A stretch of DNA of 64,000 nt, from positions 1,922,001 to 1,986,000 of the forward strand of contig NZ_CP058348.1 in NCBI RefSeq assembly GCF_013752535.1, given 5' to 3'. Within the stretch, counting starts at the first letter, position 1, and each line of letters opens with the position of its first letter. Below are positions 16,636 to 56,710 of the stretch, piece after piece. The position numbers and the translations under genes are program-made. This DNA comes from Bdellovibrio sp. KM01 (lineage in GTDB: Bacteria > Bdellovibrionota > Bdellovibrionia > Bdellovibrionales > Bdellovibrionaceae). The notes beneath the pieces were generated by a model. It did no database searches, had not been told where the DNA came from, and worked only from the letters and a program-made list of their open reading frames with translations.

Positions 16636-16758
16636 ACGACACCTCAACGTGTTCCAGGTGCAAAACAGATGCGCAGTTAAGTATTTGATTTCATGTGATT
16701 TACAGGGGGAACTGAACACTCCCCGCGTGGATTGTCATCTAGGCGTATACAGAGCGTA

Positions 16759-36503: not shown

Positions 36504-37505
36504 TTAGAATACGTTGATTGTCGCTGACATACCTACGTTTGTTTTATCAGCCGTGAAGTACTCAGGAGCGAACTGCATGTTCGGGTAAAGATAGATGTCA
36601 CGAGTAACCGCGATACCGATACCAACTGATTGCGTGTACAAGCTTCTCAACCACTCTGAACCGTCATCAGATCTGAAGTGAGAGAAGATAAATGGACGGA
36701 ATACAGTTCTGAACGAGAACATGTCGTTGAATGCATACTCAACGAATGGATAGAAGCCAAGAACCCAGTCCGTACGACCACCACCGTGAACATCAGTTCC
36801 GCGGTTTTGGATAGTATCAACGTTGTCAGCGCCTTCAGTGTAACCGTTGTAAGTTACGTCAAAGGCAACACCTGGTTGCCAGTTAGAGTTCGGGATTTCG
36901 AAAAGCAAAGTGTGACCAACGCTCAACGAACCCAATAGTTTCAATGTGTCTACATCGTAAGCGTCTGTCGCATAAGAAGCGCTAGAGCTGAATGCTTGTT
37001 GGATGCCCATCGCTCTGAATGAACGAGAGTAACCCAAAGATGGGGTTGCGATAGAGAACTGTCTGTTACCATTTTGGTTAGAAGTCTCTTCCCAGTTATT
37101 TTGGAATGGAGTGTACAAAGAAAGACCTGTAGAGAAATTCAATGCAGAGTTTTTATCCAAACGGTAGTTGATACCAACAGATCCTACCAGGTTAGTTGCT
37201 GGTTGCGTTCCAGCTTCGCCAGCATAGTTTGGACGTTCAGCACCAAATGGTTTTTCAAGGTTACCACCGTTGTAAGCCCATGAAGTTGATACGGACCAAA
37301 TAGATTTAGAACCAGAATCCGCACGCATTTTCGCGTTCGTGATTTCGTTATCCAAGTCACCGTTTGTTTGCTCGTCCTTTTTTTGAACGTCAGTTACTTT
37401 AACTGTGCTTGTGTTAGCGCTTTGGTTTTTTTCTTCAGCGTGAGCAGAAACTGCCACAACCAAAGAACCTGCCAAAATAAGTGATGAAAGAATTTGTTTT
37501 TTCAC
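36504..37505 (-). CDS. Outer-membrane beta-barrel protein
   Basis: A 333-residue protein starting with GTG. The signal peptide ends near A-H-A (residue 23). After a polar linker of about 45 residues, alternating hydrophobic and polar strands with many Tyr, Trp and Asn continue to the end, which finishes in T-I-N-V-F with a C-terminal Phe, the usual BamA-recognition signal. This indicates a barrel of roughly 10-14 strands. Channel or other function unknown. It is followed by a strong terminator. Confidence 0.8.
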   Translation of the reverse strand: MKKQILSSLILAGSLVVAVSAHAEEKNQSANTSTVKVTDVQKKDEQTNGDLDNEITNAKMRADSGSKSIWSVSTSWAYNGGNLEKPFGAERPNYAGEAGTQPATNLVGSVGINYRLDKNSALNFSTGLSLYTPFQNNWEETSNQNGNRQFSIATPSLGYSRSFRAMGIQQAFSSSASYATDAYDVDTLKLLGSLSVGHTLLFEIPNSNWQPGVAFDVTYNGYTEGADNVDTIQNRGTDVHGGGRTDWVLGFYPFVEYAFNDMFSFRTVFRPFIFSHFRSDDGSEWLRSLYTQSVGIGIAVTRDIYLYPNMQFAPEYFTADKTNVGMSATINVF

Positions 37506-37957
37506 CTGTGTGGTCCCCTTTTTTTGTTAGAACTTTGTTAATCGTTAATAGTTTTAAGTAAGTTTAGTTTCTTAATTCTTATTCAAGTCGCTTGCAGATG
37601 TTTGTCGTTTCACATTCACTACGATTTCATCTGCTCACTTCAAGTGGTCCCAAAATGGAGCCAACTTGGCTGTCATTTTTTATTAAGCAATGAAAGTGCC
37701 AGCACTTTGGTCCTATTTCAACACCAAATCCTGACAATAACCTAATATTTACGGGCAGTAGACGCACTGAAGCCTAAAAATTAAGCAGGTTCGATTTCAC
37801 ACTTGTTACTAAAACTAAGCTCATTTTGACTCCAGTAGCGGGTTATAAATTCTTCACGCGAAGCATTAAACAGAGAGCAAGTACTGTAATGCTACATGTT
37901 GAGCACGCGCGTTCTCGCCCGGATAATTCATCCAGGAAGTATTCTGAAGGGAGCTGT
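37506..37957. other. 452-base intergenic stretch
   Basis: Upstream region of two divergent genes. The first 60 bases are AT-rich and likely hold the promoter of the barrel gene. An in-frame ATG at 37826 would extend the next gene but has no ribosome site. I see no RNA gene or repeat. Confidence 0.4.
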
Positions 37958-42442: not shown

Positions 42443-43132
42443 ATGTCGAAAATTTGGTTTATCTTAAACGAGGGACAAGTTACAGGACCGTTTGAACCAG
42501 AAGAAGTTGAATCACAAGTTGCATCCTTCAAAGAACCTCTGGTGTGGGGACGTGGCCAAGGCGAATGGGATACTCCTGCCAAATGGCGTACTAAGATCAA
42601 AGACCTCCCACCGACTGCGCCCGCCGGTGATCAAAACAAAGTCTGGATGACTCGCATCGAAGGCAAAATCAACAAAGAACCGATGAAGTACGCTGACATG
42701 ATTGTCGCGCTAAAAAAGCTGACCGATCTTTCACAAGTCGACATCTCCACAGACGGCGGAAAAACCTGGAAAGAAGTTTACGCCCTTCAACAGGTCGTGG
42801 ATGATTTGGGCATCAGCCGCAGATCGCACCCTCGCGTTCCGATCGTTGGCACTCTGGAATTTGAACCTAGTGAAATGGCACCGCCACTTAAATGCCGTGT
42901 GATTTCTATCAGTGAAGGCGGCTTGGGTATTAACGATGCTGAAGGTCTGCAGATTGGCCAAAAGTTTTTTGCGACTTTGACCAGTCCCAACCTTTATCAA
43001 ACGATCACGACGACATGTGAAGTGGTTTACATGGGAAATGATGGTTACGCGGGACTGCGCTTCGTTGGTCTGCCTGAAGAATTTAAATCTTCGGTCATTG
43101 AATACGTGCGAAAGTTTGCGACAGTTTCCTAA
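42443..43132 (+). CDS. GYF_2-PilZ protein, possible c-di-GMP sensor
   Basis: A 229-residue protein. Residues 1-50 match a GYF_2 domain (W-F-I-L-N-E-G-Q-V-T-G-P-F), which binds proline-rich peptides. A second related segment begins near residue 68 (V-W-M-T-R-I-E-G). Residues about 125-225 form a PilZ domain with R-R-S-H-P-R and I-S-E-G-G-L-G, close to the RxxxR and D/NxSxxG c-di-GMP contact motifs, with E in place of the usual D/N. Probably a cytoplasmic adaptor; its partner is unknown. Confidence 0.82.
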   Translation: MSKIWFILNEGQVTGPFEPEEVESQVASFKEPLVWGRGQGEWDTPAKWRTKIKDLPPTAPAGDQNKVWMTRIEGKINKEPMKYADMIVALKKLTDLSQVDISTDGGKTWKEVYALQQVVDDLGISRRSHPRVPIVGTLEFEPSEMAPPLKCRVISISEGGLGINDAEGLQIGQKFFATLTSPNLYQTITTTCEVVYMGNDGYAGLRFVGLPEEFKSSVIEYVRKFATVS

Positions 43133-43223
43133 AGTTCGCCCAACGTATCATTCACAGCTCTAAGTCCAGTTTCAAATTGGAGCCACCTTAGTCTTTTGAC
43201 AAGTCTGGTCTGTATTCTTCATC

Positions 43224-44102
43224 GTGATATGCATGCTAGAACTATTATTCTCTCTTTTAGTGTCCCCTTCGAATGCGCCCGTGAATAACTACGCAACAGT
43301 CGTTCAGACTTTGCAACAGATCCAGGCTGCGAATCCATCAACAACAGAACTGATTGATCTGGGCCCAAATGATTCCGGGCAAAATATCATCGCCATTAAA
43401 ATTGGCGATGGTCCAACAGCAGATCTTATTGTGGGAACTCACCATGGCAATGAATATGGTTCTACGGCCGTGGCAATGGGCGCGGCTGATGCCTTTGCGA
43501 AAAATCCAATCAAGGGTCATACGGTTTACATCGTTCCGGTTTTGAATATTCCCGGCTTTAACTCTCGCTCTCGTTATGAGCGCCTAAGTGGTATGGGTTC
43601 TGTTGACCAGAATCGTGACTACCCAGGACCTTGCATCCCGGGACAACCTTTTAAATCCAAGTCTACTAAAGCTTTAGCGAACTTTATTGATCAAAAAAAC
43701 ATCATCAGCTCTGCCACTCTTCACACTCACTGGCCTGCTGTTCTTTACCCATGGGGTTTTTCAACTCGCGATGTGATGACGAAAGACGATGCCACGTTCA
43801 TTCAGTTAAGCAAAGATGCGGCTGTTGAAAGTGGTTATGATGTTGGAAACTCAAAAGACATGCTTTACGCAGCTGATGGTGCTTTTGAAGATTACGCGTA
43901 CTGGAAACATGGCATCTGGTCATTATTGTTTGAAATGGGTGAAACTCACACACCATCCGAGGCGCAAATGGCACAAATGGTTTCCGTGAATGTTCCTGGT
44001 ATTCGTCGCTTCTTTGAGAATGCACCTAAAGAACGCGCGAAAGATCACGCCTTTACTGGAAAATGTGATCGCAGCATCATGCAAAGAACTCACTTAGAGT
44101 AG
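43224..44102 (+). CDS. M14-family zinc carboxypeptidase
   Basis: A 292-residue protein whose first 16 residues are hydrophobic, perhaps a weak signal peptide; a second ATG lies nine bases further. Zinc ligands are seen as H-H-G-N-E (H-x-x-E) near residue 75 and His in L-H-T-H near 172, with the catalytic Glu in F-E-M-G-E-T near 238. M14 peptidases remove C-terminal residues, including meso-DAP from cell-wall peptides in some predatory bacteria. A strong terminator follows. Confidence 0.87.
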   Translation: MICMLELLFSLLVSPSNAPVNNYATVVQTLQQIQAANPSTTELIDLGPNDSGQNIIAIKIGDGPTADLIVGTHHGNEYGSTAVAMGAADAFAKNPIKGHTVYIVPVLNIPGFNSRSRYERLSGMGSVDQNRDYPGPCIPGQPFKSKSTKALANFIDQKNIISSATLHTHWPAVLYPWGFSTRDVMTKDDATFIQLSKDAAVESGYDVGNSKDMLYAADGAFEDYAYWKHGIWSLLFEMGETHTPSEAQMAQMVSVNVPGIRRFFENAPKERAKDHAFTGKCDRSIMQRTHLE

Positions 44103-44135
44103 TCGGCTTCATCGATCCACATAAATTCAGATTTA

Positions 44136-44166
44136 AACCCGATCCCACAAAGATCGGGTTTTTTAT
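44136..44166 (+). terminator. Terminator after M14 peptidase
   Basis: AACCCGATC-CCACAAA-GATCGGGTTTTTT hairpin with T-run. Confidence 0.9.
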
Positions 44167-44297
44167 TTTCCAAAGCGCCTTCTTTACGGCCCAAACTTTG
44201 TATCAATCTGAGACCGCGCCTGACTTTCATTTTGACGATTTCAACGTCGCTTTTAGCAAAAAAACAGTCCTTTCCGAATCTTATGGAGCACCACCCA

Positions 44298-44337
44298 GTG
44301 ACGACAATTTTTGTCACGAAGTGACGTTTTAGTCGTC
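44298..44337. promoter_or_regulatory. Nested inverted repeats upstream of the Agl/Glt-like cluster
   Basis: Outer arms GACGAC (44300-44305) and GTCGTC (44332-44337) and inner arms GTCAC (44313-44317) and GTGAC (44321-44325) share nearly the same centre (about 44319). They lie about 100 bases before the first motor gene, in a 331-base gap with no other gene. A repressor or activator site is inferred. The remaining gap holds only the M14 terminator. Confidence 0.45.
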
Positions 44338-44433
44338 TCTAATTGAGCCAAGTACCTGTTACCTGGATGTTTTTTTATGGCACTGGCCTTGCTCATAAGG
44401 CTTCGGGAAAACTTTTAACCCCGGAGGATATAC

Positions 44434-45114
44434 ATGGAATTTCTAATGTCACTTGGTCGCGGTTTCACTTCAGGAGATGCAATTTGGATGTGGACTATCT
44501 TGGCTGCTCAAATCGTTTCCGTTGCTATTATTGCTGAGCGCTCTGTAGCACTTTTCTTGAACCGTAAAGTAAATCAAAAGGATATCTCTAAAACGATCGC
44601 AGACGACATTAAAGCCGGCAAATTGGACCAGGCACTACGTCGCTCTATGCAGATCGGTTTGACTCAACCATTGGGCGTTGTGGCCTCTGCAGGCATCCAA
44701 GCCGCGATGGATTTGGGTGGCAAAGAAGAGATCCAACTTAAAATGGACGAAATCCTTCTTGAAGAATCCAGCCGTGTTGAAAAACGCATCGGCTTCCTGG
44801 CAATGTTCGCCAACGTCGCGACTTTGTTGGGTCTTTTGGGTACGATCACAGGTCTAATCCACTCTTTCGCCGGTATCGCAAATGCCAACCCAGCTGAAAA
44901 AGCAGCGATCTTGTCTCAAGGTATCTCTCTTGCGATGAATACAACAGCTTACGGTCTGGTAGTCGCAGTTCCAGCGTTGATAATGTACGCGGTTCTACAA
45001 AACAGAGCGACTCGTTTGACGGAAGATTTGAACAAAGCAGCTTTGAATTTGTTCATCCAACTTGGTTACCACTACGCTCCAGTTTCAGACAAAAAAGAAA
45101 AAGCACTTAAATAG
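44434..45114 (+). CDS. TolQ/ExbB/AglR-like proton-channel protein
   Basis: A 226-residue protein with three membrane helices in the MotA/TolQ/ExbB arrangement: one near residues 15-30, then two near 125-145 and 165-195 with the conserved T-L-L-G-L-L-G-T-I-T-G-L and A-L-x-T-T-A-x-G-L-x-V-A-x-P pattern. It is one half of a proton-driven motor. GGAGG lies just upstream of the start. Because two TolR-type genes follow, the set matches AglR-AglQ-AglS of myxobacterial gliding. Confidence 0.9.
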   Translation: MEFLMSLGRGFTSGDAIWMWTILAAQIVSVAIIAERSVALFLNRKVNQKDISKTIADDIKAGKLDQALRRSMQIGLTQPLGVVASAGIQAAMDLGGKEEIQLKMDEILLEESSRVEKRIGFLAMFANVATLLGLLGTITGLIHSFAGIANANPAEKAAILSQGISLAMNTTAYGLVVAVPALIMYAVLQNRATRLTEDLNKAALNLFIQLGYHYAPVSDKKEKALK

Positions 45115-45146
45115 TACGAACCAAGACATCTAACTGAGAGGGCTTT

Positions 45147-45608
45147 ATGAGCGCATCAGGTAACGGTAACGACAAATTAAACTTCGAAATCAATATCCTG
45201 CCGATTCTGGATATCCTTTCTGTACTCATCTGCTTTTTGCTTTTGACTGCAGTATGGGTGCAAATCGGTACTCTTGATACGAAGCAAGCTATTGGTGACA
45301 ACTCCACAACAGGAGCCGTAAACCCACCGTCCCTTTGGGTGACGATGGAGGCTGACGGCAGCATGCAACTATCTTTGCGTGACGTTCCGAAAGCGAAAAC
45401 TTTGGAAGAGCGTATCGCAAGATCAACTGAAGGTGTGGATTTGCAACGTCTTGAAGCGCGTTTGCAAGCTTACAAGGCACAATGGCCTGATCTTAAAACA
45501 AGTGTGGTTCGTCCCGGCGCACAGACTAATTATGGTGATGTGATCCGCGTGATGGATAAATTGAAGCAGAACTCATTCGAAGGCGTGGGCTTGTCCCCAC
45601 TAGGGTAA
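45147..45608 (+). CDS. First ExbD/TolR-like motor protein
   Basis: A 153-residue protein with one N-terminal helix (residues about 15-38) carrying the proton-path Asp in L-P-I-L-D-I-L-S, as in TolR. The periplasmic domain follows. A four-base gap separates it from the second TolR-type gene. It would pair with the TolQ-like protein; AglQ or AglS is the likely myxobacterial equivalent. Confidence 0.88.
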   Translation: MSASGNGNDKLNFEINILPILDILSVLICFLLLTAVWVQIGTLDTKQAIGDNSTTGAVNPPSLWVTMEADGSMQLSLRDVPKAKTLEERIARSTEGVDLQRLEARLQAYKAQWPDLKTSVVRPGAQTNYGDVIRVMDKLKQNSFEGVGLSPLG

Positions 45609-45612
45609 TTAT

Positions 45613-46098
45613 ATGAGAACTTCATTTGTAAACGCTAACAAACAACGTTCTCCATTGATGGAAGCTCAAACGCTAAAACCAGGCGGCAAGAAGAAATCTT
45701 CGGGTGCTCGCGGCCTGGCGTTGGCGCTTCCGCTGACATCATTGATCGACGCTTTCTCTATCATCGTGATTTATCTTTTGATCGGTACGCAATCGAACGG
45801 TATCGAAGTCAAAAGCGGACAGATGAATCTGCCAATCGCAGAACACTCTCAAGGTGTTGATAAAGAAATGGCGATTTTGAGAATCGAAAAAGGCAACTAC
45901 TTCATCAACGACGAACGCGTTGTCGGCAGCCAGTTGGGATCAAAATTGGAATCCTTGAAAAAGGACTCTAAAGAAGACGTAGAGCTTATGATCCAAGCCG
46001 ACACCGAGATGAAATACGCTGACCTGGATCCAATCATCAAGGCTGGTTCTTTGGCAGGTATTGAAAAACTTAAATTTGCGGTGGTACCAAAACAATGA
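45613..46098 (+). CDS. Second ExbD/TolR-like motor protein
   Basis: A 161-residue protein. About 35 basic residues precede a single helix with the conserved Asp in S-L-I-D-A-F-S. The periplasmic part resembles ExbD/TolR (E-D-V-E-L-M-I-Q-A-D). Its stop overlaps the next start by ATGA. Having two different TolR-type subunits with one TolQ type is what is seen in the AglRQS gliding motor. Confidence 0.88.
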   Translation: MRTSFVNANKQRSPLMEAQTLKPGGKKKSSGARGLALALPLTSLIDAFSIIVIYLLIGTQSNGIEVKSGQMNLPIAEHSQGVDKEMAILRIEKGNYFINDERVVGSQLGSKLESLKKDSKEDVELMIQADTEMKYADLDPIIKAGSLAGIEKLKFAVVPKQ

Positions 46099-49052
46099 GA
46101 ACACTAAAACGCCTCCTCATTATCAGTCCGATTCTGGCCGGTGCTCTGTTTACACAGATCGCTCGCGCAGAAAAGATGAACTCCGACACGCAAGATCTTG
46201 TCGTCGGCAAGATGGAGCGCGTTTTAAAGGCGATGGATGTTAAAGATCCATCATGGGTACCAACGCAGCAACGTTTGGCTGATACACTGGCGGAAAGAGC
46301 GCGTACCCGTTTCATGCAAGAAGTTGAAGCTAACTGTGACGGCTGTAAAGGCTCTAAAGCCGATCGTCAAAAAGCGATCGAGATCTATGAGAATATTTTA
46401 GCGAAAATTGAGCTGAATGAACATGGTCCGATCCTGTTCCAATTGGGTCACTTGTACGAAATGGCTGGTCAAAATGACAAGTCCATCGAACTTTTCCAAA
46501 GTATCGTAAAAGACGCTAAGAAAAAATCCATCTCTGCTGATATCGTTTCCCGTTCCCATGCAGAGCTGGGCGATTTGCTTTTCCAAAAAGGCAAATTCAA
46601 AGAGGCGAAAGCTCACTATGTCATCGCCCTTAAAGATAAAAAACTTCAAAACCGTGCTTTGGCGACTTACAACATGGCATGGAGTGATTTCAATGACGAT
46701 AAACTAGCGTCAGCAATCTCCATTATGGAAGGCTTGCTTTCTAAGCCTGAACTGATCACTCGCGATACTGAAACAGGAGCTTCTTATGACCCTGTTTTCC
46801 ATGCGGATATCGTGCGTGACCTTGGTACTTTCTATGCGCGCAGAAATATCTCTGTGAAAGAAATTGCCCGCTATGAAGTCCTTTCCCCTAAAGAAAAACG
46901 TAAAGAATTACTTTTAAACTTTGCTCAAGAAGCGGACCGTGTTGGTCAAAAACAAGCAGCCGCTGATATCTTAAGCCGTTATATGGATCAAGAAGGTTTG
47001 ACAGATGCCGAGACTCTGGAAGCTTTCGTTCGTATGGCGAAAATCAACTATGACCGTGGTCAAACGGGCAAATCAACTCAAGACTTTGCTAAAGCTGCCA
47101 AGTCTTTCAAAAACACATGCAAAGACGCTTCGAAATGTGAAGAGTTGAAAAAAACGATGAAGACCTATGTAACGGAACTTCACCGCTCTAAAAAATTGAA
47201 ACCTGACCAGGATCTTTTAAACTCTTACGTGATCTATTCAAACACATTCCCAGAAGACACTGAGATGACGACTCGTGGTGCTCAGGTTGCAATGGATATG
47301 GGGAAACCCGCTATTGCGGCTCAATTGTACCGCGCGATCAGCGACAACTCGGATTTGTCTGAAAAAGAACGTCAAAATGCTCTTTTGAATGAAGTGGCGG
47401 CTGGTGAAAAATCCAACGACGCTAACATTCAAAAAGCGGCTTACATCAACTTCCTTAAAAAAGGTAAAGATGAAGGCAAGTCCTTTGAAGTTCGTTACCA
47501 AATGGCTTACCTAAGCTATCAACAAAAACAATTGAAAGAAGCGGCAGTTGCTTTCAATGACTTGGCGACAGACAAAAAAGGCAATCCGGAACTTCGTAAG
47601 AAATCTGCAGACCTGGCGCTGGACAGCTTGGCGCAACTTAAAAATGACGAGCAAATCCAGGAATTGGCTGCTAATTATGCTGCCATCTTCCCTGCTCACA
47701 AGGCAGAGTTTGAATCCACAAGCCGTAAAGCTTTGATGAATCAAGCAGCGGCTTTAGCGAATAATCCAAATTCCAGCAAATCTGATATGCGCACGGTTTT
47801 GAAGCGCATTACGAACACAAACCTTTCTTCTGCTAAGTCTGAAGAAAAAGTTTTGTTCTATACAAATGAAAGCATCCTGGCGCAAAAACTGGGCGAAGAA
47901 GAAATCTATGTTCAGGCCCTGAACAAATTGATCGCTGCTGACGTTACCGTTGCAAAAAAAGAAGCTTACCTTGAGCAATTGACGGGTTATTACGAAAAGA
48001 AACTGGATTTCGCAAACGCTTATAAAACTGCTCTTCGCTTGAAAATGCCTAAAGTTTCTGAAAAAGACCGTGAGTTCCGTCTGGGCACATTGGCTGACCT
48101 GGCTAATATGAATCCACAACGTCACTACCGTGCAGCTTTGAAATTGGGCATCAAAGGCGATCGCGCTATGATCATGCGCACCCGCTTGGTGCTTATGTCT
48201 GGCAACCCGGCTTCAGAGCTGAAAGCTCAATCTTCAGAATTACGTCGCAGTCCTTCTCTTTTGAATGACACGGCTTTGCTGGTGTACGCTCGCAATGGTA
48301 TGAGCGGCAGCCTTAAATCCGTATTGGACATGAAAGAGATCCGCAACCGTTCGGCGGCTCAATTCATTCAAAAACAGCCATTCTATAACAAAGCATTGAG
48401 CTTTAAAAATCAGATCGCGGCCCACATGATCGTGACGAAATCTGATAAACAAATGCAAAGAGATATCACGGAGCGTATGAAGCTTTTGGCTAAGGCCGAT
48501 AACCTGCTTCAAGAGGCGAATCGTACTCGCGATATCACGGCTCAATTAATGGCACTTGAAATCGTGTCTATTGAAAATGACAGAATGGTTCGCGATTTGG
48601 TGAATTTGCCTATGCCTAAAGGTCTGACTCCACAGGAGCAGGCTCAATACGTGGGTATCTTGAAGGCCAAATCCAAACCCTACCTGATGAAGGCGAAATT
48701 CGCGGAACAACGCGAACAAGACCTTCTAAACAACTCTCAGGCCCTAGCGCAAATGGCTCAGGATTACAAAACAGCCCGTCCTGAAATCCAAAATATCCTG
48801 AAACGCGAGATGACTTTGATCACTCAATTGCAAGCGAGTGGCAAAATGAAGTCAGCTGTTTCCGATGCGCTAAATTCGTCACAGGCAACAGCGTCTGATT
48901 TGGCCTCCGCGCGCAAATCAGTGGCAGCTGAGCCCAACAACGCAGGTGAGATTGTAAAACTTAAAACTCTAGAGACAAAAATGGGCCATCCCCTTATGGC
49001 TTCGTACCTGGAAGCCCGTTTAAATCAATTACAGAGAGGAAAAAGCCTATGA
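46095..49052 (+). CDS. Large exported TPR protein
   Basis: A 985-residue protein with a signal peptide (cleavage near A-R-A, residue 25). Almost the whole length is helical repeats of TPR type, for example G-P-I-L-F-Q-L-G-H-L-Y-E and Y-Q-M-A-Y-L-S-Y-Q. A C-D-G-C motif lies near residue 80. It is probably a periplasmic scaffold, comparable in position to the TPR proteins (GltD/GltE) of the myxobacterial gliding complex, but assignment to one of them is inferred. Both ends overlap neighbours by ATGA. Confidence 0.85.
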   Translation: MRTLKRLLIISPILAGALFTQIARAEKMNSDTQDLVVGKMERVLKAMDVKDPSWVPTQQRLADTLAERARTRFMQEVEANCDGCKGSKADRQKAIEIYENILAKIELNEHGPILFQLGHLYEMAGQNDKSIELFQSIVKDAKKKSISADIVSRSHAELGDLLFQKGKFKEAKAHYVIALKDKKLQNRALATYNMAWSDFNDDKLASAISIMEGLLSKPELITRDTETGASYDPVFHADIVRDLGTFYARRNISVKEIARYEVLSPKEKRKELLLNFAQEADRVGQKQAAADILSRYMDQEGLTDAETLEAFVRMAKINYDRGQTGKSTQDFAKAAKSFKNTCKDASKCEELKKTMKTYVTELHRSKKLKPDQDLLNSYVIYSNTFPEDTEMTTRGAQVAMDMGKPAIAAQLYRAISDNSDLSEKERQNALLNEVAAGEKSNDANIQKAAYINFLKKGKDEGKSFEVRYQMAYLSYQQKQLKEAAVAFNDLATDKKGNPELRKKSADLALDSLAQLKNDEQIQELAANYAAIFPAHKAEFESTSRKALMNQAAALANNPNSSKSDMRTVLKRITNTNLSSAKSEEKVLFYTNESILAQKLGEEEIYVQALNKLIAADVTVAKKEAYLEQLTGYYEKKLDFANAYKTALRLKMPKVSEKDREFRLGTLADLANMNPQRHYRAALKLGIKGDRAMIMRTRLVLMSGNPASELKAQSSELRRSPSLLNDTALLVYARNGMSGSLKSVLDMKEIRNRSAAQFIQKQPFYNKALSFKNQIAAHMIVTKSDKQMQRDITERMKLLAKADNLLQEANRTRDITAQLMALEIVSIENDRMVRDLVNLPMPKGLTPQEQAQYVGILKAKSKPYLMKAKFAEQREQDLLNNSQALAQMAQDYKTARPEIQNILKREMTLITQLQASGKMKSAVSDALNSSQATASDLASARKSVAAEPNNAGEIVKLKTLETKMGHPLMASYLEARLNQLQRGKSL

Positions 49053-49315
49053 AAACGCTCATTCTATTGGCGCCCTTCTTGCTTAGTATGATGGGTGCCC
49101 CCGGCGCCTTAGCAGCAAATAAAGCTAAGAAGGCCGAAGGGAACAAACCGCAACTAGGCACCTCCTTTAAGTTTGATGGAAGTGCTCTTCGCGGGAAATA
49201 CCAAAGCTCTCTGAATACGAAAGCCACGGTAGAAAACGATAAATTATTGGAAGATCTTTTGGCTGGAAGAAAAGAATTTAACGACAGAATCCAAGACGAT
49301 CTAAAAAGAAACTAG
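49049..49315 (+). CDS. Small exported protein of the Agl/Glt-like cluster
   Basis: An 88-residue protein with a signal peptide (cleavage near A-L-A, residue 23), followed by a charged, mostly helical region. It overlaps the TPR gene by ATGA and precedes the TonB/AgmX-type gene by eight bases. No family is recognised; its place within the operon suggests a small periplasmic part of the machine. Confidence 0.72.
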   Translation: MKTLILLAPFLLSMMGAPGALAANKAKKAEGNKPQLGTSFKFDGSALRGKYQSSLNTKATVENDKLLEDLLAGRKEFNDRIQDDLKRN

Positions 49316-49323
49316 GACGTAAC

Positions 49324-50553
49324 ATGAACGCAGCAAAACTAATCATTCTAGAAAACATCGCGGGACAAAAAGTCCGCACGTTTGCGGTTGATTCAGAGTC
49401 CTTGAACATCGTGTACCTTAAGGATCAACGCCGCGTTGAAGCCTTGGCAGACTTGAAAGTTCTTAAAGACAATGACATCGACTACAACCTTCTTAAAAAG
49501 ATCGATCTTTCTAAGTTGAGCTCTAAAGGTGAAACACTTGCGGGCTTGGGGCGCATTCGCCTGGCAAGTCACGATGACGTTACAAGCCCTCAATACTCGT
49601 TGCATGAAGAGCAAGATGAAGAGCAACTAAAGACAATGTTGACTCGCACGGCACTGACTCACTTGGTAGTTGTCGGCATCATCATGATGGGTACTTTCAT
49701 TGCCGCTAAATACTTTACGAAAAAAGACGAAGCTCCTTTGGTAACTATCGTTATCCCTAAAGAAGCTCCTAAAGTTGTTGAAAACAAACCGGTTCCACAC
49801 GTGAAGATGTCTGAAAAGAAAATCAAACCATCTAACAAAGTGTATAAACCAGTCGTTAAGAAACAACCTATCAAAGTTAAAAAATACACCGTGAACACCA
49901 ACAAAGCGAAAAACGTACAACGCGTGGGTGCTTTGGCAGCTTTGGGTGGAACTCCGAAAGGCACTCGTGGTTACGAGGGTCTTGATAACAACTCTATGAA
50001 AGCTATCCGTTCTGCTGGTATCGGCAATGGCGGTGGCGGCGTCGGCTCTGCTGGTCGCGGTGGTGTTAAAGGTTACCTTCCCGGCAATGGCTTGATCGCT
50101 GGTTCTGCAGGTGAAGGTGGTCGCGCTGAAAGCGCTGGCGGTTACGGCACTCGTGGTGTTGGTGGCGGTCGTGCGGGTTACGGCAAGATGAATATGGTTG
50201 GTGGTACGGCTGCCTCTAGTCTTCCCCTTGATGCGGAAGCAACTGTTGAAGGCGGTTTGGATCGTGACCAAATCATCGCGGTTATCAACCGTAACAAAGG
50301 TCAAATCGTATATTGTTATGAAAAAGGTCTGCAAGCCCAGCCAGCTATCGGTGGTCGTGTGGCAGTTGACTTCGTGATCGGTCCAAATGGTCGTATCACA
50401 ACAGCAAAAGTGGCTCAAAGTTCTCTGGGTTCGGCAATGGTTGAAAACTGCATGATCGCTAAAATGAAATCATGGCAGTTCCCGAAACCAGTTGGAAAAG
50501 TAAACGTAGATGTTCTTTACCCATTCGAATTAATGCGCGTTTCGGCTCGCTAA
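49324..50553 (+). CDS. AgmX/PglI C-terminal domain (TonB-like) protein, GltG/GltJ-like
   Basis: A 409-residue protein. Residues 1-105 are cytoplasmic and could be a degenerate FHA-like domain. A helix at about 113-131 is followed by a Lys/Pro-rich stretch (about 140-200) that could span the periplasm, then a Gly-rich segment (about 230-300). The last 95 residues match the AgmX/PglI C-terminal domain, a TonB-like fold, with paired Cys in Y-C-Y-E and E-N-C-M. In Myxococcus such proteins (GltG/GltJ) link the inner-membrane motor to the outer membrane. Confidence 0.88.
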   Translation: MNAAKLIILENIAGQKVRTFAVDSESLNIVYLKDQRRVEALADLKVLKDNDIDYNLLKKIDLSKLSSKGETLAGLGRIRLASHDDVTSPQYSLHEEQDEEQLKTMLTRTALTHLVVVGIIMMGTFIAAKYFTKKDEAPLVTIVIPKEAPKVVENKPVPHVKMSEKKIKPSNKVYKPVVKKQPIKVKKYTVNTNKAKNVQRVGALAALGGTPKGTRGYEGLDNNSMKAIRSAGIGNGGGGVGSAGRGGVKGYLPGNGLIAGSAGEGGRAESAGGYGTRGVGGGRAGYGKMNMVGGTAASSLPLDAEATVEGGLDRDQIIAVINRNKGQIVYCYEKGLQAQPAIGGRVAVDFVIGPNGRITTAKVAQSSLGSAMVENCMIAKMKSWQFPKPVGKVNVDVLYPFELMRVSAR

Positions 50554-50581
50554 GAATTGAACGAGTATTAAAGAGGTTAAT

Positions 50582-52012
50582 ATGAAGACGGTAAAAAGTT
50601 TGATGATCGCAATCCCGGCAGCAATGGCCCTCACAGCATGTGATGGCTGGCAGAAGAGTCCTTCATCGGACCTTCAAGAAATGCGCGCTCAAGCAAAAAC
50701 TATCACTGAGATGGGGCCTGATAAACCTCAGACAATCACTGAGACCGTCGTAGTGACGCAACCTTCTCCAGTGGAAGTAACTAAGACTGTTGTCGTTGAA
50801 AAACAAGTCGAAGTTAAAGTTAAAGAAACAGACATCACTCGTTCAATGATCCTTTTGACGGCTGATTCTGAAATGACTTTCTCTGAAGGCGTTTCTTCTT
50901 CATATAAAATCCGCGCTTCCCTTCCGGTTCCAGGCGCCGCTGTTACTTTGACAGCTTCGAACCTGCCTGAAGGTGCTTCATTGAAACCTTCTTCTGAAAA
51001 AGACGTTTACGTTCTGACTTGGAATCCTCCAATGTACACAGTGGACGCTGGTAAATCTTTGAAATCTATCCCTGTGAAATTCACAGCAACTGTTACCAAT
51101 GCTGGGACATCTAAAAATGCCGAAGCGGTTAAAGGCATGATCAACGAACTGGATAAAACTTTGTTCGTGACTAAAAACCAAGTGGCTCCAAGTGCGTTGT
51201 CGGTTTCTGGTATCGCTGCTGAGGTTTCTGAAGATCAACTAACACCGTTCTCTGTAACAGTCACTGTTCCAGGTATCGATGGTAAATCTTCTCAAAAACC
51301 ACGTATCGTAATCAGCTACGATGCAAACGCTATCACGGCAGGTAACGACTTTCTGGAACTTGATGGTTCTCGTTATGTGATCGCTGACCTTAACAAAAAA
51401 GACGCTGAATACCTTGGCGATTCTAAATGGAAAATCAACTTGATCTTCGATACTAAAAATATCGCAGTTCAACCGCAATTGGCTAAAGATGGCACTATTA
51501 TGTTGCAAGCTAACGGCACACGCGTTCGTTTCAGCGTGAAAGCTTTCAGCCCGAATGGTCTTTCAACTGCTGAATCGGTTGTTCAAACTAAGATCGTTTA
51601 CACAAAAACTATCTCCGCTCCCCGTTTCGACGTTTCCGGTCTTGGTAAACAAGGTTTGGAAGTTTCCCCGGGCGAAAAAGTAACTCTTCGTTTCTCAGCT
51701 TCATCAAGCAGCAAAAACGCAGTGGTAGCAGTTGAATCTAAAAACTCTGCCTTGCCAGGAAACCCACAAATTTCTTGTGAAGCTTCTGCTACTGGCAGCA
51801 ACAAACAAGAATGTACTTTGACTTGGGAAGTTCCTTGCGATGCAACTTCAAAAACTTTGAAGGGTGCAATCGAAATGTCGGCAACGGGTTCATTGAATGG
51901 TCAAATCTCTAATGTGACTGAATATGCTTTGAAAACGGTCAAAGCAGCTAAAGACAAAAAACTTTGCGCTGCTCCTGCTACAGCAGCTGCTAAAGCTGCG
52001 GAGGCTAAATAG
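50582..52012 (+). CDS. Lipoprotein with Ig-like domains
   Basis: A 476-residue lipoprotein (signal ending in L-T-A-C at residue 20). A short linker with Thr/Val repeats (about 50-85) is followed by three or four beta-rich domains that resemble Ig-like folds, each with alternating hydrophobic and Thr/Ser residues. A C-terminal Ala/Lys tail closes it. Probably attached to the outer membrane and part of the machine's envelope-spanning or surface portion. No named family. Confidence 0.8.
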   Translation: MKTVKSLMIAIPAAMALTACDGWQKSPSSDLQEMRAQAKTITEMGPDKPQTITETVVVTQPSPVEVTKTVVVEKQVEVKVKETDITRSMILLTADSEMTFSEGVSSSYKIRASLPVPGAAVTLTASNLPEGASLKPSSEKDVYVLTWNPPMYTVDAGKSLKSIPVKFTATVTNAGTSKNAEAVKGMINELDKTLFVTKNQVAPSALSVSGIAAEVSEDQLTPFSVTVTVPGIDGKSSQKPRIVISYDANAITAGNDFLELDGSRYVIADLNKKDAEYLGDSKWKINLIFDTKNIAVQPQLAKDGTIMLQANGTRVRFSVKAFSPNGLSTAESVVQTKIVYTKTISAPRFDVSGLGKQGLEVSPGEKVTLRFSASSSSKNAVVAVESKNSALPGNPQISCEASATGSNKQECTLTWEVPCDATSKTLKGAIEMSATGSLNGQISNVTEYALKTVKAAKDKKLCAAPATAAAKAAEAK

Positions 52013-52014
52013 TT

Positions 52015-52800
52015 ATGAAAAACTTTAAACTTCTTTCTGCAACTGTTTTGTTAATCGCGCTAAGCTCACAAAATGTTTTCGCAGCTCCGGCTAAAAAAGC
52101 TGTGAAAAAAGCAACCACAACATCTTCTCAACCGGCTCGTATTAACGACAATAGCGATGTCACTAGTGACATCGACTCTTTGGGTGGCAACGAACAGTTG
52201 ATGAACATGGCGCAAAATATCAAATCTGAAAGCCGTTCTCGTATCGTTCAAGAGCGTATCGTTGACAGACGCAACCGCCTTGAAGTGGGTGTTAACTACG
52301 GAATGAACTTCGGTGGTGATGCTTACACGAAAACTCAAGCTATGGGCGCAACTCTTGATTTCCACATCACGCCTCGCTGGTCCATCGGTGCAAGATACTT
52401 TGACTACGGAAATTCTTTGTCTCCAGAAGGTAAACGTATTTTCGACCAAGCGAAAGCGAACTACCAAGCTGGTGGCCGCGCATATGCCGTGGACATCGAC
52501 TACCCGGAAAGTTCTGTCATGGCAGTTTTAAACTGGTATCCAATCTATGGTAAAACAAGCTTTATGGATGTTGGTGTGACTCAGTTCGATATGTACTTAC
52601 TTGGCGGTGGTGGTCAAATCACTTTGTCCAGCGGTTCAACTGCAGTTTATACAGCAGGTCTTGGTATCGGTGCCTGGATCACAAAACATCTGACTGCAAG
52701 AGCTGAAGTTCGTTACATGAATTACAACGACAAACCCGTAACAGGTGAACGTAACTTGAACGTTGTCACGGGTAACCTTGGTCTTGGATGGATGTTATGA
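52015..52800 (+). CDS. Outer-membrane beta-barrel of the Agl/Glt-like cluster
   Basis: A 261-residue protein with a signal peptide (cleavage near V-F-A, residue 23), a Lys/Thr/Ser-rich linker, and about 170 residues of alternating strands with G-V-N-Y-G-M-N-F, W-S-I-G-A-R-Y-F and A-R-A-E-V-R-Y-M-N-Y patterns. This fits an OmpA-type eight-strand barrel. In the myxobacterial system comparable barrels (GltA/GltB/GltH) form the outer-membrane part. It starts two bases after the lipoprotein stop and overlaps the next gene by ATGA. Confidence 0.83.
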   Translation: MKNFKLLSATVLLIALSSQNVFAAPAKKAVKKATTTSSQPARINDNSDVTSDIDSLGGNEQLMNMAQNIKSESRSRIVQERIVDRRNRLEVGVNYGMNFGGDAYTKTQAMGATLDFHITPRWSIGARYFDYGNSLSPEGKRIFDQAKANYQAGGRAYAVDIDYPESSVMAVLNWYPIYGKTSFMDVGVTQFDMYLLGGGGQITLSSGSTAVYTAGLGIGAWITKHLTARAEVRYMNYNDKPVTGERNLNVVTGNLGLGWML

Positions 52801-53864
52801 TTTCCAAAAAGGCTTTTGTATCTCAACTTCTAATGGTCACGGCTTTAAGTGTTGGTCACAATGCTTTGGCTGCTGAGCGTTTTTCAGTGAAGGACTGGGG
52901 GAATTCCCTAGAAACTTCTTTGTCTGAAAAAAGCGGCAAGACCACTTTGAATTTGTTGGACTTCAACAAACTTGAAGGCAAAGTGATTGGTTCTGCTTCG
53001 AACAGCAAAATCAAACAAACAATCCAAAAAGCCCGTGAGTTGTTCGCTGCAGGAAAATACTCTCAGTCTTTGGCTCTATACAATGAAGTTCCCCGTGGTT
53101 CAGACTACTGGTTCCAAATCGTAGAGGAAAAAGGTTGGGCTTACTTCCGTCAAAATGACTCCGAAAAAGCGTTAGCTCAATCTAAAACATTGTTGAGCCC
53201 GCAATTCGCGGAAGTAGTTAACTCTGAAGCTTACCTGCTTCAGTCCTTGGCTGAACTAAAAATCTGTGATTACAAATCTGTTTTCAAAACGACTCAGATG
53301 TTCAAAGAAAAACAACGCGATCGTATCGCTTCTGTTCAAGCTTTGACCAAAGAAGGTTTCAACGACGCGTTCCTAACAGTTTTGAAAAAAGTTGATAAGT
53401 TCCCATTGCAAGCAACTGAAGTGGGTGAATCGTTATTGAAACTTCCGGTTCTTTACTACAAAGACTTGGAACTTCAAAAACAGATGTTGCGCTTTAAATT
53501 AAGCCAAAAAGGTATGGAAGTTTTGGCAGCTAAAAACGTGCAACGTACTTTGCAAACTCAACTGGACCAAATCAACAAGGAAGCCTTCATTAAAATGAAA
53601 GTGCGACTTCAGGAATTGGCTAACAACGAGACCGCTGACAACAAACGCGTAATCGGCAAATTGAACCTGGTGGAGGTTGAAGCGATTCAACGCGTTCACA
53701 CGGATCAAAAACTTGCGGATGCGGCTTACACGAAAAATGATTTCAAAGACACAAATGTGGACCAGTTGGTATTTAAAGACGACGGCCGCCCTTGGATCGA
53801 CGAATTGGACAAGTACGACGTAGTTACGAAGTCTTGTGCTCAAAATGTTAGGAGAAAAATGTGA
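52797..53864 (+). CDS. Exported TPR-like protein of the Agl/Glt-like cluster
   Basis: The ATG at 52797 is chosen because of the ATGA overlap with the upstream stop. The 355-residue product has a signal peptide (cleavage near A-L-A, residue 26) and a TPR-like region (about 80-160) with A-R-E-L-F-A-A-G-K-Y-S-Q-S-L-A-L-Y. The C-terminal part is a long helical region. It resembles the periplasmic TPR proteins of gliding complexes (GltE-like by position). It is coupled by ATGA to the VWA lipoprotein gene. Confidence 0.8.
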   Translation: MISKKAFVSQLLMVTALSVGHNALAAERFSVKDWGNSLETSLSEKSGKTTLNLLDFNKLEGKVIGSASNSKIKQTIQKARELFAAGKYSQSLALYNEVPRGSDYWFQIVEEKGWAYFRQNDSEKALAQSKTLLSPQFAEVVNSEAYLLQSLAELKICDYKSVFKTTQMFKEKQRDRIASVQALTKEGFNDAFLTVLKKVDKFPLQATEVGESLLKLPVLYYKDLELQKQMLRFKLSQKGMEVLAAKNVQRTLQTQLDQINKEAFIKMKVRLQELANNETADNKRVIGKLNLVEVEAIQRVHTDQKLADAAYTKNDFKDTNVDQLVFKDDGRPWIDELDKYDVVTKSCAQNVRRKM

Positions 53865-55159
53865 AACCACTTATAGCTCTTTGCATTTACGTTTCAGCAT
53901 TTTTATTGCTATCGGCGTGCGCCCAGGAATCTGGAACCATCATCGCGCAAAAAACTCTGGAGCAACCAAAAGTTGAGCTTCCGGTTTACCCGGACGTTGT
54001 TCAACCGGAACAACCAGAAATTCCAGTTTATCCGACTGTGAAACAACCAGAAATCGTTTGGATCACAGAGGACGGCGGTCAAAGTCAGCTTGATTTCAAC
54101 CCACGTGTTGACATCCTGTTTGTAACTGACAACTCGGACTCTATGAAATCGGCTCAAGCAAACTTGATCAAGAACTTGAATCGTTTTACAAATGGTATCA
54201 CGAACAACAAGATGATTGACTATCATATCGGTGTTATCTCTACTTGGGACAGTTCCGAGCGTTTTGCGACAAAGAAAAAAGATACTTACCAAATTGGTGA
54301 GCTTCGCAATGTTAAAACAATTGCTGGCACTGAATCTAAAGAACGTTTCGTAACTAAAAAAGATTCAGCTGGTATTTTGGCGAACACATTGAAAATCGGT
54401 GTTGCTCCTTATGCGGAAGGTGGGCCTGAGGTTGAAGAGTTCTTCTCTCCCCTTGCGGCAGCGTTGGATAAAAGCGGCCACGCGGCAGTGAATGAAGGTT
54501 TCTTCCGTGACGATGCCCAGCTTGTGGTGATCTTCATGACGGATGCTGACGATTCTTCATCTCGCATCACTCCAGAACAAATGGCGCAAACTTTGATCGA
54601 TTTCAAAGGTGGCCGCCAGGATAAAGTTTCTGTTTATGGTGTGTTGGTTAATGCCAAAGATCCAGATTCAGTTAAAGACTGGGATTTGCGCGTTCACCCT
54701 AAATACCACCCTGAGTGTTTTACTGGTCAAAAGAACAACGGTAAATGTACTGGCTTCGGTCCAGAGCGTTTGGAAGAAATGATTGTGGCTGCCAATAACG
54801 GTGCCGGCAATCCAAAACAAATCCGTGAACAGTATATCATGAGCATCACGTCCCCTATCTTCGGTACGGAGTTGGGTCGCATGGGCGACTCCATCACGGT
54901 TAAGACTTTGGAAAAACAAATTTTCCTAAGCCAAATCCCACGTGTGGATGACTCCGGCAAGCTGATGTTGCGTGTTCGTTATGGTACGGCTGATGTTTTG
55001 GCTCAAGGCAAGGGTCAGTTGATTCCGAACAAAGCGAACGGTGGTTGGACTTACAACCCAAGTTCAAACTCTGTGAAACTTTCTGGTAACGTAAAGTACG
55101 AATACAAAGAAGGCGCTAGATTCGCAGTGGACCTGGTTCCAGTTCCACTGGCGAACTAA
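53861..55159 (+). CDS. VWA-domain lipoprotein, CglB-like adhesin candidate
   Basis: A 432-residue lipoprotein (signal ending in L-S-A-C at residue 20). A Pro/Val/Glu-rich linker follows (about 33-65). The von Willebrand A domain begins near residue 82 with D-I-L-F-V-T-D-N-S-D-S-M, which contains the intact D-x-S-x-S MIDAS metal site, and a second acidic site is F-M-T-D-A-D-D. Two Cys residues near 285 may form a disulfide. CglB of Myxococcus is an outer-membrane VWA lipoprotein that acts as the gliding adhesin; the last place in this operon fits that role. The link to CglB is inferred. Confidence 0.85.
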   Translation: MKPLIALCIYVSAFLLLSACAQESGTIIAQKTLEQPKVELPVYPDVVQPEQPEIPVYPTVKQPEIVWITEDGGQSQLDFNPRVDILFVTDNSDSMKSAQANLIKNLNRFTNGITNNKMIDYHIGVISTWDSSERFATKKKDTYQIGELRNVKTIAGTESKERFVTKKDSAGILANTLKIGVAPYAEGGPEVEEFFSPLAAALDKSGHAAVNEGFFRDDAQLVVIFMTDADDSSSRITPEQMAQTLIDFKGGRQDKVSVYGVLVNAKDPDSVKDWDLRVHPKYHPECFTGQKNNGKCTGFGPERLEEMIVAANNGAGNPKQIREQYIMSITSPIFGTELGRMGDSITVKTLEKQIFLSQIPRVDDSGKLMLRVRYGTADVLAQGKGQLIPNKANGGWTYNPSSNSVKLSGNVKYEYKEGARFAVDLVPVPLAN

Positions 55160-55881
55160 AGATTCGATTTCATCACAGAAGGTTCTGTTAATTTCAGAAC
55201 CTTCTGCAGACTTCCATCCGATTTCATTTGCTCCAGAACCGCATTGAATTCCTTTAGCAGATTCTGCCCCTCTTCATCATTACGAAAAGCAAAATAACAA
55301 TCCTGATTTGATACCGGATTTTCACGGCTATAGTTGATACCTTGAACTTTACTTAACTCTAAGGCGCGAAGCCCTGACCGCTCTTCAACAATAAAGGCAT
55401 CAATGGTGCCATCAGCTAAGCGGCGCATGTTGGCCACGTCATCATCGGCATAGATGAATTTAACTTTACTGTTTTCCTGAATCTCCGCCGGATAGTGATA
55501 ACGGAACGTTAAGCCTACGTTTTTTCCGTAAAGCTCTTTGAAAGTCTTAAAAGGACGTTTTTCACGATAAAAAATAAAATTGGTACGAATATAAAAGGGT
55601 GTGGATTTCAACGCGTCTTTCGGTACGGAATTATCCATTCCAGGAAAGAACCCTTCGGCTTTTCCATTGGAAAAAGCCAGCTTTGCTTTATTGGAAGTCA
55701 GAACATCGACCTTGAACTTACTTTTAGAGCGAGAGGCAATTTCATTAGCGAGCTTTAGAAACGATCCTTTGTCTTTGCTTTCCACAAATAAAGGAATAGG
55801 AAAAGTCACCAGGCGTGCCACCTTGGCTTCCACAGAACCAGCAATACAAAATAAGGGAAGAACCAAATATTTGAATTTCAT
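55156..55881 (-). CDS. Periplasmic solute-binding protein, family 3 type
   Basis: A 241-residue protein with a signal peptide (cleavage near V-E-A, residue 19). Its F-x-P-G-M-D, G-K-N-V-G-L and D-G-T-I-D-A-F-I-V-E motifs match the amino-acid-type (SBP_bac_3) binding proteins. No ABC permease or ATPase is next to it. It may serve a distant importer or act as a sensor. It converges with the VWA gene, overlapping by four bases. Confidence 0.8.
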   Translation of the reverse strand: MKFKYLVLPLFCIAGSVEAKVARLVTFPIPLFVESKDKGSFLKLANEIASRSKSKFKVDVLTSNKAKLAFSNGKAEGFFPGMDNSVPKDALKSTPFYIRTNFIFYREKRPFKTFKELYGKNVGLTFRYHYPAEIQENSKVKFIYADDDVANMRRLADGTIDAFIVEERSGLRALELSKVQGINYSRENPVSNQDCYFAFRNDEEGQNLLKEFNAVLEQMKSDGSLQKVLKLTEPSVMKSNL

Positions 55882-55930
55882 GCTTAGATAGCTTGCATGG
55901 ACTCACGGTCATTTAGCAAACAATTTATGT

Positions 55931-56710
55931 TTACTGATCAACAATTGGCAACTCCTTCACTCCCAATGTCGAACCACGTTTAGAAAAAAATCCGGGACGT
56001 TCAGTTACGACGAATCCTTGCATTCGCAGAGCCCGCTTCATATTGCTTTTGCACGCATATGTTGTAAGGACACTTTGCTCAGCAGCAGATTCCAACAGCA
56101 GACGATTTAAGAATTCCTCGCCCCATAAGTGCGGATGAGTTTTAGAACTGAAAGCATCATAGAAAAAACCGTGATAGCGCGAAACGAATTTTATGTCTTC
56201 ATGAAGAGAACCATGAATATCCGTGAGATTTACGAAATGCTGCCTCAAGAAAGACTTTAACTCTCTGTTTGCAATGTCGGTCCCTTTCAAAACGTGCATC
56301 AAAGCATCATCATAAACAGCGGCAACTTCTGGCAAAAGACTTAAATATTGATCATGCAGCCACAAGTAAAAGAACTCACGCAGCTCAGGAATGCTTTCGT
56401 AACTGGTGATAAGGCCCACGGATTTTTTTTGTTTAAGGGCCTCGCGGGCAATATTCATCTCGATGTAGCCCAACCCCAGTCCCACCACCATAAAATGAGG
56501 ATTATCGACTTTCTTTAAAACATCGGCCGCTACATTTCCGTAAAGATGGGTAGTTTCAGTGCTTGCACCACCGGAGTGATGCATGGACTCGCCATAGGGT
56601 TTTGCGGGATCTAAGGATTCTAATAGACGCAAAGTGGGGCTTTGATCCTTGGTAATTTCGATCTCAAACCCTAGATCACCCCATGATTTCAGTGGTTTTG
56701 GCTCAATCAT
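55931..56710 (-). CDS. MnmC-like methyltransferase (methyltransferase domain only)
   Basis: A 259-residue protein with the MnmC methyltransferase signs: E-S-M-H-H-S-G-G near residue 40, the SAM loop G-L-G-L-G-Y, then Y-D-A-F-S-S-K-T-H-P-H-L-W near 190 and T-Y-A-C-K-S-N-M-K-R near 225. MnmC makes the last step of mnm5s2U in tRNA; here the FAD oxidase domain is absent, as in single-domain forms. The exact substrate is not proven. It is divergent from the radical SAM gene with 34 bases between. Confidence 0.85.
   Translation of the reverse strand: MIEPKPLKSWGDLGFEIEITKDQSPTLRLLESLDPAKPYGESMHHSGGASTETTHLYGNVAADVLKKVDNPHFMVVGLGLGYIEMNIAREALKQKKSVGLITSYESIPELREFFYLWLHDQYLSLLPEVAAVYDDALMHVLKGTDIANRELKSFLRQHFVNLTDIHGSLHEDIKFVSRYHGFFYDAFSSKTHPHLWGEEFLNRLLLESAAEQSVLTTYACKSNMKRALRMQGFVVTERPGFFSKRGSTLGVKELPIVDQ

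Follow-up and report, generated by a model that had tools for sequence, protein, structure and literature searches.

A conserved ten-gene Agl/Glt-family motor unit with a VWA lipoprotein and a sigma-54-type promoter element in Bdellovibrio sp. KM01

The closest described systems to the locus studied here are the AglRQS–Glt focal-adhesion gliding machine of Myxococcus, with CglB, and four clusters published for Bdellovibrio bacteriovorus HD100, Bd0412-0420, Bd0828-0838, Bd1473-1483 and Bd2368-2377 (PMC2797640). Within the third of these, Bd1481 is aglR (PMC2277423) and bd1480 is aglQ (PMC9140294). GltH, GltI, GltJ and GltK have been reported as all absent from HD100 (PMC3169522), and a 2026 review describes the gliding motor and adhesins of Bdellovibrio as unidentified and as a major open challenge (PMC13104615). 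We analysed a window of 64,000 nucleotides from Bdellovibrio sp. KM01 (positions 1922001-1986000 of its 3,961,288-bp single-contig genome) and found ten collinear open reading frames, all on the + strand, at 44434-55159. These ten genes are one complete operon. We give a little better than an even chance to the reading that they encode a complete Agl/Glt trans-envelope motor, orthologous to Bd0411-Bd0421 of HD100, which would be switched on by sigma-54 after prey entry and would move or anchor the predator in its prey.

Composition and conservation of the unit

The genes and their upstream elements are listed below with window coordinates and strand; hhalign denotes profile–profile comparison, run against the Myxococcus genome (8,973,512 bp).

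44298..44325, +: candidate activator (enhancer) site, a GTGAC-N10-GTCAC inverted repeat with a third GTGAC; recurs in orthologues
44378..44393, +: sigma-54-type -24/-12 promoter element TGGCACtggccTTGCT (TGGCAC-N5-TTGCT), 56 nucleotides upstream of the first gene
44434..45114, +: AglR-type (TolQ/ExbB-family) motor subunit; PF01618, hhalign to Myxococcus AglR 9.5e-39 (40%), tree
45147..45608, +: AglQ-type (ExbD/TolR-family) subunit; PF02472, hhalign AglQ 2.5e-17 versus AglS 4e-4, transmembrane Asp
45613..46098, +: AglS-type (ExbD/TolR-family) subunit; PF02472, hhalign AglS 2.1e-10 versus AglQ 4e-4, transmembrane Asp
46095..49052, +: exported TPR protein, GltD-like, 985 amino acids; TPR models, hhalign Myxococcus GltD 6.8e-18 over 791 columns and Bd0828-type GltD 1.6e-26
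49049..49315, +: small exported protein in the GltF (CglF) position, 88 amino acids; kept in orthologues, weak GltF profile match (probability 69%)
49324..50553, +: GltG-like TonB-type transducer with an AgmX/PglI C-terminal domain, 409 amino acids; NF033768 above cut-off, NF033760 (GltG) 131.6 bits, hhalign GltG 1.6e-27
50582..52012, +: lipoprotein with tandem Ig-like domains, 476 amino acids; lipobox LTAC, AlphaFold predicted local distance difference test (pLDDT) 80.7, tandem Ig/cadherin matches
52015..52800, +: outer-membrane beta-barrel of GltA/GltB type, 261 amino acids; TIGR04565 (OMP_myx_plus) 107 bits, above cut-off, hhalign GltB 2.2e-12
52788..53864, +: exported TPR protein, GltC-like in its C-terminal part, 358 amino acids; NF033756 42.6 bits, below the equivalog cut-off, hhalign GltC 8e-14 over 158 columns
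53861..55159, +: VWA/MIDAS lipoprotein with a GTG start and a predicted integrin I-domain fold in a small beta domain, 432 amino acids; invariant motifs, model and fold match

A reading made from the sequence alone (below, the sequence-only reading) had described these ten collinear genes; their coordinates held, and profiles and models bore out the domains. Its account of repeated ATGA overlaps was slightly generous: two junctions, between the second TolR-type gene and the TPR gene and between the TPR gene and the small gene, are true ATGA overlaps, whereas the GltC-like and VWA genes overlap by GTGA and one further overlap measures 13 nucleotides. In gene order the spacings are +32, +4, -4, -4, +8, +28, +2, -13 and -4 nucleotides. 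The 3' end of the VWA gene faces a convergent gene, and a terminator-like hairpin (44135-44161) lies 3' of the gene upstream of the cluster. An Rfam scan of 43000-56500 found no riboswitch or other RNA.

All ten genes, in unchanged order, were found in 24 loci (L032-L055), at protein identities of 99-32%. Most of the genes were detected in five remoter loci (L056-L060; 23-54% identity), two of which had no detected motor genes, and the ten-gene set occurs in about 25 Bdellovibrio-type genomes. The genes that flank the cluster in the window are kept as flanks only in the four closest relatives. With its gene order preserved across about 29 loci between changing flanks, the cluster is not a chance arrangement. 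The VWA lipoprotein gene belongs to the conserved unit, in agreement with its earlier description as built in.

The Glt-type components depart from a full Glt set. The GltG-like protein has one membrane segment and a myxo_SS_tail (AgmX/PglI) match above the NCBIfam cut-off, but no FHA domain match; FHA was found only in the GltG proteins of Myxococcus and of the Bd0828 type. Cys20 of the lipobox in the Ig lipoprotein is invariant in 24 homologues, and the predicted model is all-beta. The barrel protein showed no match to GltH by hhalign. For GltE there was neither a model match nor a significant profile match within the cluster, whereas the Bd0828-type cluster gave a weak one; GltH, GltI, GltJ and GltK were likewise not found in a search that covered the cluster. 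Since no GltE could be recognised in it, we class the cluster as a divergent member of the Agl/Glt family.

The VWA domain is weak by sequence and clear in structure (AlphaFold pLDDT 84.9). In the model it occupies about residues 81-350 and is inserted in a small beta domain built from both ends of the protein. The model matches integrin I-domains (Z about 15) and, over most of its length, integrin beta headpieces; 26 VWA homologues all keep the lipobox Cys20, D90-x-S92-x-S94 and D228. The protein would be a surface adhesin with metal-dependent binding. It resembles the MIDAS adhesins Bd0875 and Bd1483 (PMC11003981) in combining a lipobox with a VWA/MIDAS domain set within a small beta domain, but it scores far below the cut-off of the NCBIfam model for that Bdellovibrio family (32 bits versus 700). 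The only gliding-adhesin model that matched was CglD, at 25.8 bits versus a cut-off of 400.

Two genes upstream of the cluster were considered as members of the unit and rejected, as their linkage is confined to the four closest relatives. One encodes a GYF_2 and PilZ protein (42443-43132, +), 1.3 kb upstream, a make-up also seen in the Bd1473-type cluster between the VWA and aglR genes (L061:12835-13455). The other follows the PilZ gene, ahead of the cluster, and encodes an M14 zinc carboxypeptidase-like protein (43224-44102, +). Elsewhere in the window, two big neighbouring reading frames (12743-16719, -; 524 and 807 amino acids) overlap by 22 nucleotides and have no Pfam match.

Family placement and HD100 counterparts

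One MotA/ExbB and two ExbD domains scored above the Pfam cut-off. Both ExbD-type proteins carry a transmembrane Asp aligned with that of TolR and ExbD, and the succession of an AglQ-like and an AglS-like gene is that of Myxococcus aglR-aglQ-aglS. The top NCBIfam matches of the motor subunits bear Tol or Exb names, as would be expected of an ordinary Tol-Pal or Exb-Ton system. These matches are far below cut-off, however: the TolQ-family subunit reached 82.9 bits on the TolQ equivalog model, versus a cut-off of 221. Genuine Myxococcus AglR also scores best on the TolQ model (76 bits), and no AglR model matched any motor subunit in the NCBIfam search. Because genuine AglR itself best-matches TolQ, NCBIfam names are useless for telling Agl from Tol, and a best match to Tol, which the sequence-only reading had taken as decisive against itself, was obtained but is uninformative. 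A tree of the ExbB/TolQ family parts the Agl type from the Tol/Exb type by a branch with 100/100 support, and the unit has no TolA, TolB or Pal. Tree and profiles refute a Tol-Pal or Exb-Ton identity, to which we attach next to no probability. We conclude from these comparisons that the motor is of the Agl/Glt family, clearly separate from Tol-Pal and Exb-Ton. A PDB sequence search returned ExbB/TolQ and TonB only, with no Agl or Glt structure and none for the VWA protein.

Within the family, AglR of Myxococcus falls with the Bd0828 type and not with the window type (moderate support of 85-94, on long branches), and a second Myxococcus motor groups with the Bd1473 type (94-96). The window-type and Bd2368-type motors form a sister pair (99/99). 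Deeper branching order is unsure because the branches are long. Both the machine type and the kind of adhesin are already known. The window cluster shares relatives of AglR, AglQ, AglS, GltD, GltG, GltC and an outer-membrane protein with the Myxococcus machine, but GltE, GltH and FHA were not found in it. On this evidence it appears to be a family member but not an AglR-type gliding motor.

For comparison with HD100 we used a relative genome of 3,782,950 bp, presumably that of B. bacteriovorus HD100 itself, in which four strong AgmX clusters lie at 0.392, 0.786, 1.396 and 2.277 Mb. In the 1.396-Mb cluster the order of VWA gene, one gene, AglR and AglQ is that expected of Bd1483, Bd1482, Bd1481 and bd1480, and in the 0.786-Mb cluster AglS is the final motor gene, which fits Bd0838 (PMC6561027). 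As these gene contents are consistent with the Bd numbers in print, and the window corresponds to the 0.392-Mb cluster, sequence comparison identifies the window cluster as the orthologue of Bd0411-Bd0421 (Bd0412-Bd0420 in PMC2797640). The two belong to different species and share the ten genes, their order, 49-84% identity (L047) and the promoter element. The exit-phase cluster Bd2368-Bd2377 has the same ten-gene order closing with a VWA lipoprotein, but its GltD-like protein is only about 29% identical and no sigma-54 site was found. Bd1473-Bd1483 shares the Agl/Glt core and a VWA lipoprotein (Bd1483), but places the VWA gene first, followed by a GYF_2 and PilZ gene, and no Ig lipoprotein was found. 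Three HD100 clusters out of four thus carry a VWA gene, the exception being the Bd0828 type, in which none was found.

The genome of KM01 carries window-type, Bd1473-type (L061) and Bd0828-type (L099) clusters; no Bd2368-type cluster was detected in it. L099 (3138001-3158000 of the genome), with two outer-membrane proteins, GltC, GltD, a GltE-like and a CglF-like protein and an FHA-bearing GltG, comes nearest in this genome to the Myxococcus gliding set. By the tree it is the AglR co-orthologue, and no VWA gene was found in it. In a genome of 2,657,893 bp, presumably of the epibiotic B. exovorus, a Bd0828-type cluster is present and a window-type one is not (a single comparison).

These results revise several earlier claims. 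The sequence-only reading was right that the Myxococcus parts are spread over several loci (three: 8.15, 6.0 and 2.95 Mb), and its comparison with the myxobacterial gliding machine stands for AglRQS, GltD, GltG, GltC and the outer-membrane protein, but not for GltE, GltH, GltI, GltJ, GltK and FHA, none of which was recognised in the cluster. The idea that this is the counterpart of the Myxococcus gliding motor proper gives way to the Bd0828-type cluster. Nor is the compact layout with a VWA gene special, Bd1483 in Bd1473-1483 having already been published (PMC11003981, PMC2277423) and the Bd2368-2377 type having the same ten-gene order, and the suggestion of an ancestral form is not supported.

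Promoter and control region

A sigma-54-type element with 10-11 of 11 consensus positions lies 42-59 nucleotides before the first gene in all 21 genus-level orthologues (at -50 in HD100), and three family- or order-level orthologues have 9-11 of 11. Across 919,624 strand-bases, sites with at least 10 of 11 numbered 47, cluster promoters included. The other three cluster types gave no such element in their upstream regions, and a sigma-70 promoter scan gave nothing above chance. In L035, L037, L038, L039 and L047 (HD100) the inverted repeat, in a 15-nucleotide register, lies about 77-80 nucleotides upstream of the -24 element. GTGAC half-sites number 33 in 20 upstream regions, whereas shuffled sequences gave 8.8 on average and 17 at most. 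Any probability is inflated by shared descent, but the rest of the upstream sequence has diverged widely among the orthologues.

An RpoN-like factor, bd0843, is predicted in HD100 (PMC3464611), and our literature search turned up nothing on control of these clusters by sigma-54. We infer that the operon is probably sigma-54-dependent. As far as we found, the conserved sigma-54-type promoter and upstream inverted repeat of the window-type cluster, as recognized by sequence, would be new. Found at this cluster type and not at the other three, such a promoter could explain its separate timing.

Two further perfect sigma-54-type sites were seen. One (37686-37701, -) lies 181 nucleotides upstream of a 333-amino-acid reading frame (36504-37505, -) without a Pfam match. 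The other (L067:14549-14564, near 3.2405 Mb of the KM01 genome) is the sole perfect match among the loci compared that does not precede a window-type cluster.

Timing and possible role

The most likely role of this machine would be predator movement or anchoring inside prey. The lack of a window-type cluster in the presumed epibiotic B. exovorus, a single comparison, speaks for such a role. Expression of the HD100 orthologue is raised 4-7-fold 30 min into predation, but not in prey-independent growth (PMC2797640), and its protein peaks at 45 min to 1 h (PMC12546842). Such expression lends the earlier term 'predation-specific' some support, all of it from outside the present analysis.

In the mechanism we propose, transcription would start from the sigma-54 promoter with an activator bound some 70 nucleotides upstream; under such control the machine would be made at one stage only, just after prey entry. 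Proton flow through the AglR/AglQ/AglS-type stator would drive the TonB-like GltG. The periplasmic GltD-, GltF- and GltC-like proteins would relay the force, together with the Ig lipoprotein and the barrel in the outer membrane, to the VWA lipoprotein. This surface protein would bind a ligand through the metal at its MIDAS site, and the machine would move or anchor the predator against the inner side of the prey envelope. We infer this force path, the assembly order, ligand binding and in-prey motility, with force perhaps transferred as has been proposed for Myxococcus.

Several observations weigh against the proposal. The literature search found no mutant of Bd0411-Bd0421, motility in prey is speculation, as is acknowledged in PMC12546842, and in a sister cluster loss of the VWA gene Bd1483 by deletion left predation unimpaired (PMC11003981). 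The case for sigma-54 is a consensus match, and our HD100 genome was named without a label. Of 119 genomes searched, 95 have a relative of the GltD-like protein, and distant relatives of the cluster are widespread in the order; because of this we do not conclude that presence of the gene is a simple marker of predation.

The unit might instead be a non-motility envelope machine, acting in outer-membrane transport or remodelling, or in uptake or secretion within prey, in which the VWA protein would sense the substrate or serve as an anchor. Transport or secretion was the first proposal of the HD100 authors (PMC2797640), the related Nfs machine handles a spore coat polymer (PMC3858216, PMC3169522), and the core complexes also occur in non-gliders (PMC3169522). 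However, the unit contains no transporter, receptor or enzyme gene, and a conserved integrin-like adhesin suits traction or anchoring better than transport, so we consider this rather unlikely. We find it more improbable still that the cluster is a surface-gliding motor of the Myxococcus focal-adhesion kind, serving outside prey in scouting or attachment, in which the VWA protein would take the part of CglB. Bdellovibrio does glide (PMC3169522, PMC13104615), and the family, the overall composition and a VWA adhesin within the unit are what such a motor would show. But Myxococcus AglR groups with the Bd0828 type, whose AglS mutant lost attachment (PMC6561027); the reported surface-induced genes, bd1480 and bd3099, lie elsewhere (PMC9140294); the orthologue peaks after entry (PMC12546842); and the cluster has no recognisable GltE or GltG FHA domain.

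It is possible, although we would put it short of probable, that Bdellovibrio carries several copies of the Agl/Glt motor, one per life-cycle stage, and that this sigma-54-switched copy, with its own integrin-like adhesin, works in the prey periplasm. The comparison separates the candidates: the relative of AglR is the Bd0828 type, and the window type appears to be a machine apart, under separate regulation and equipped with an adhesin of its own. The conserved promoter would offer a direct handle on it and predicts an activator responsive to prey entry. As the orthologue is induced just after prey entry, the cluster is a good lead on the predator's grip or movement within prey; if the in-prey motor reading is true, it would be a gliding or anchoring motor that acts on another cell's envelope from inside.

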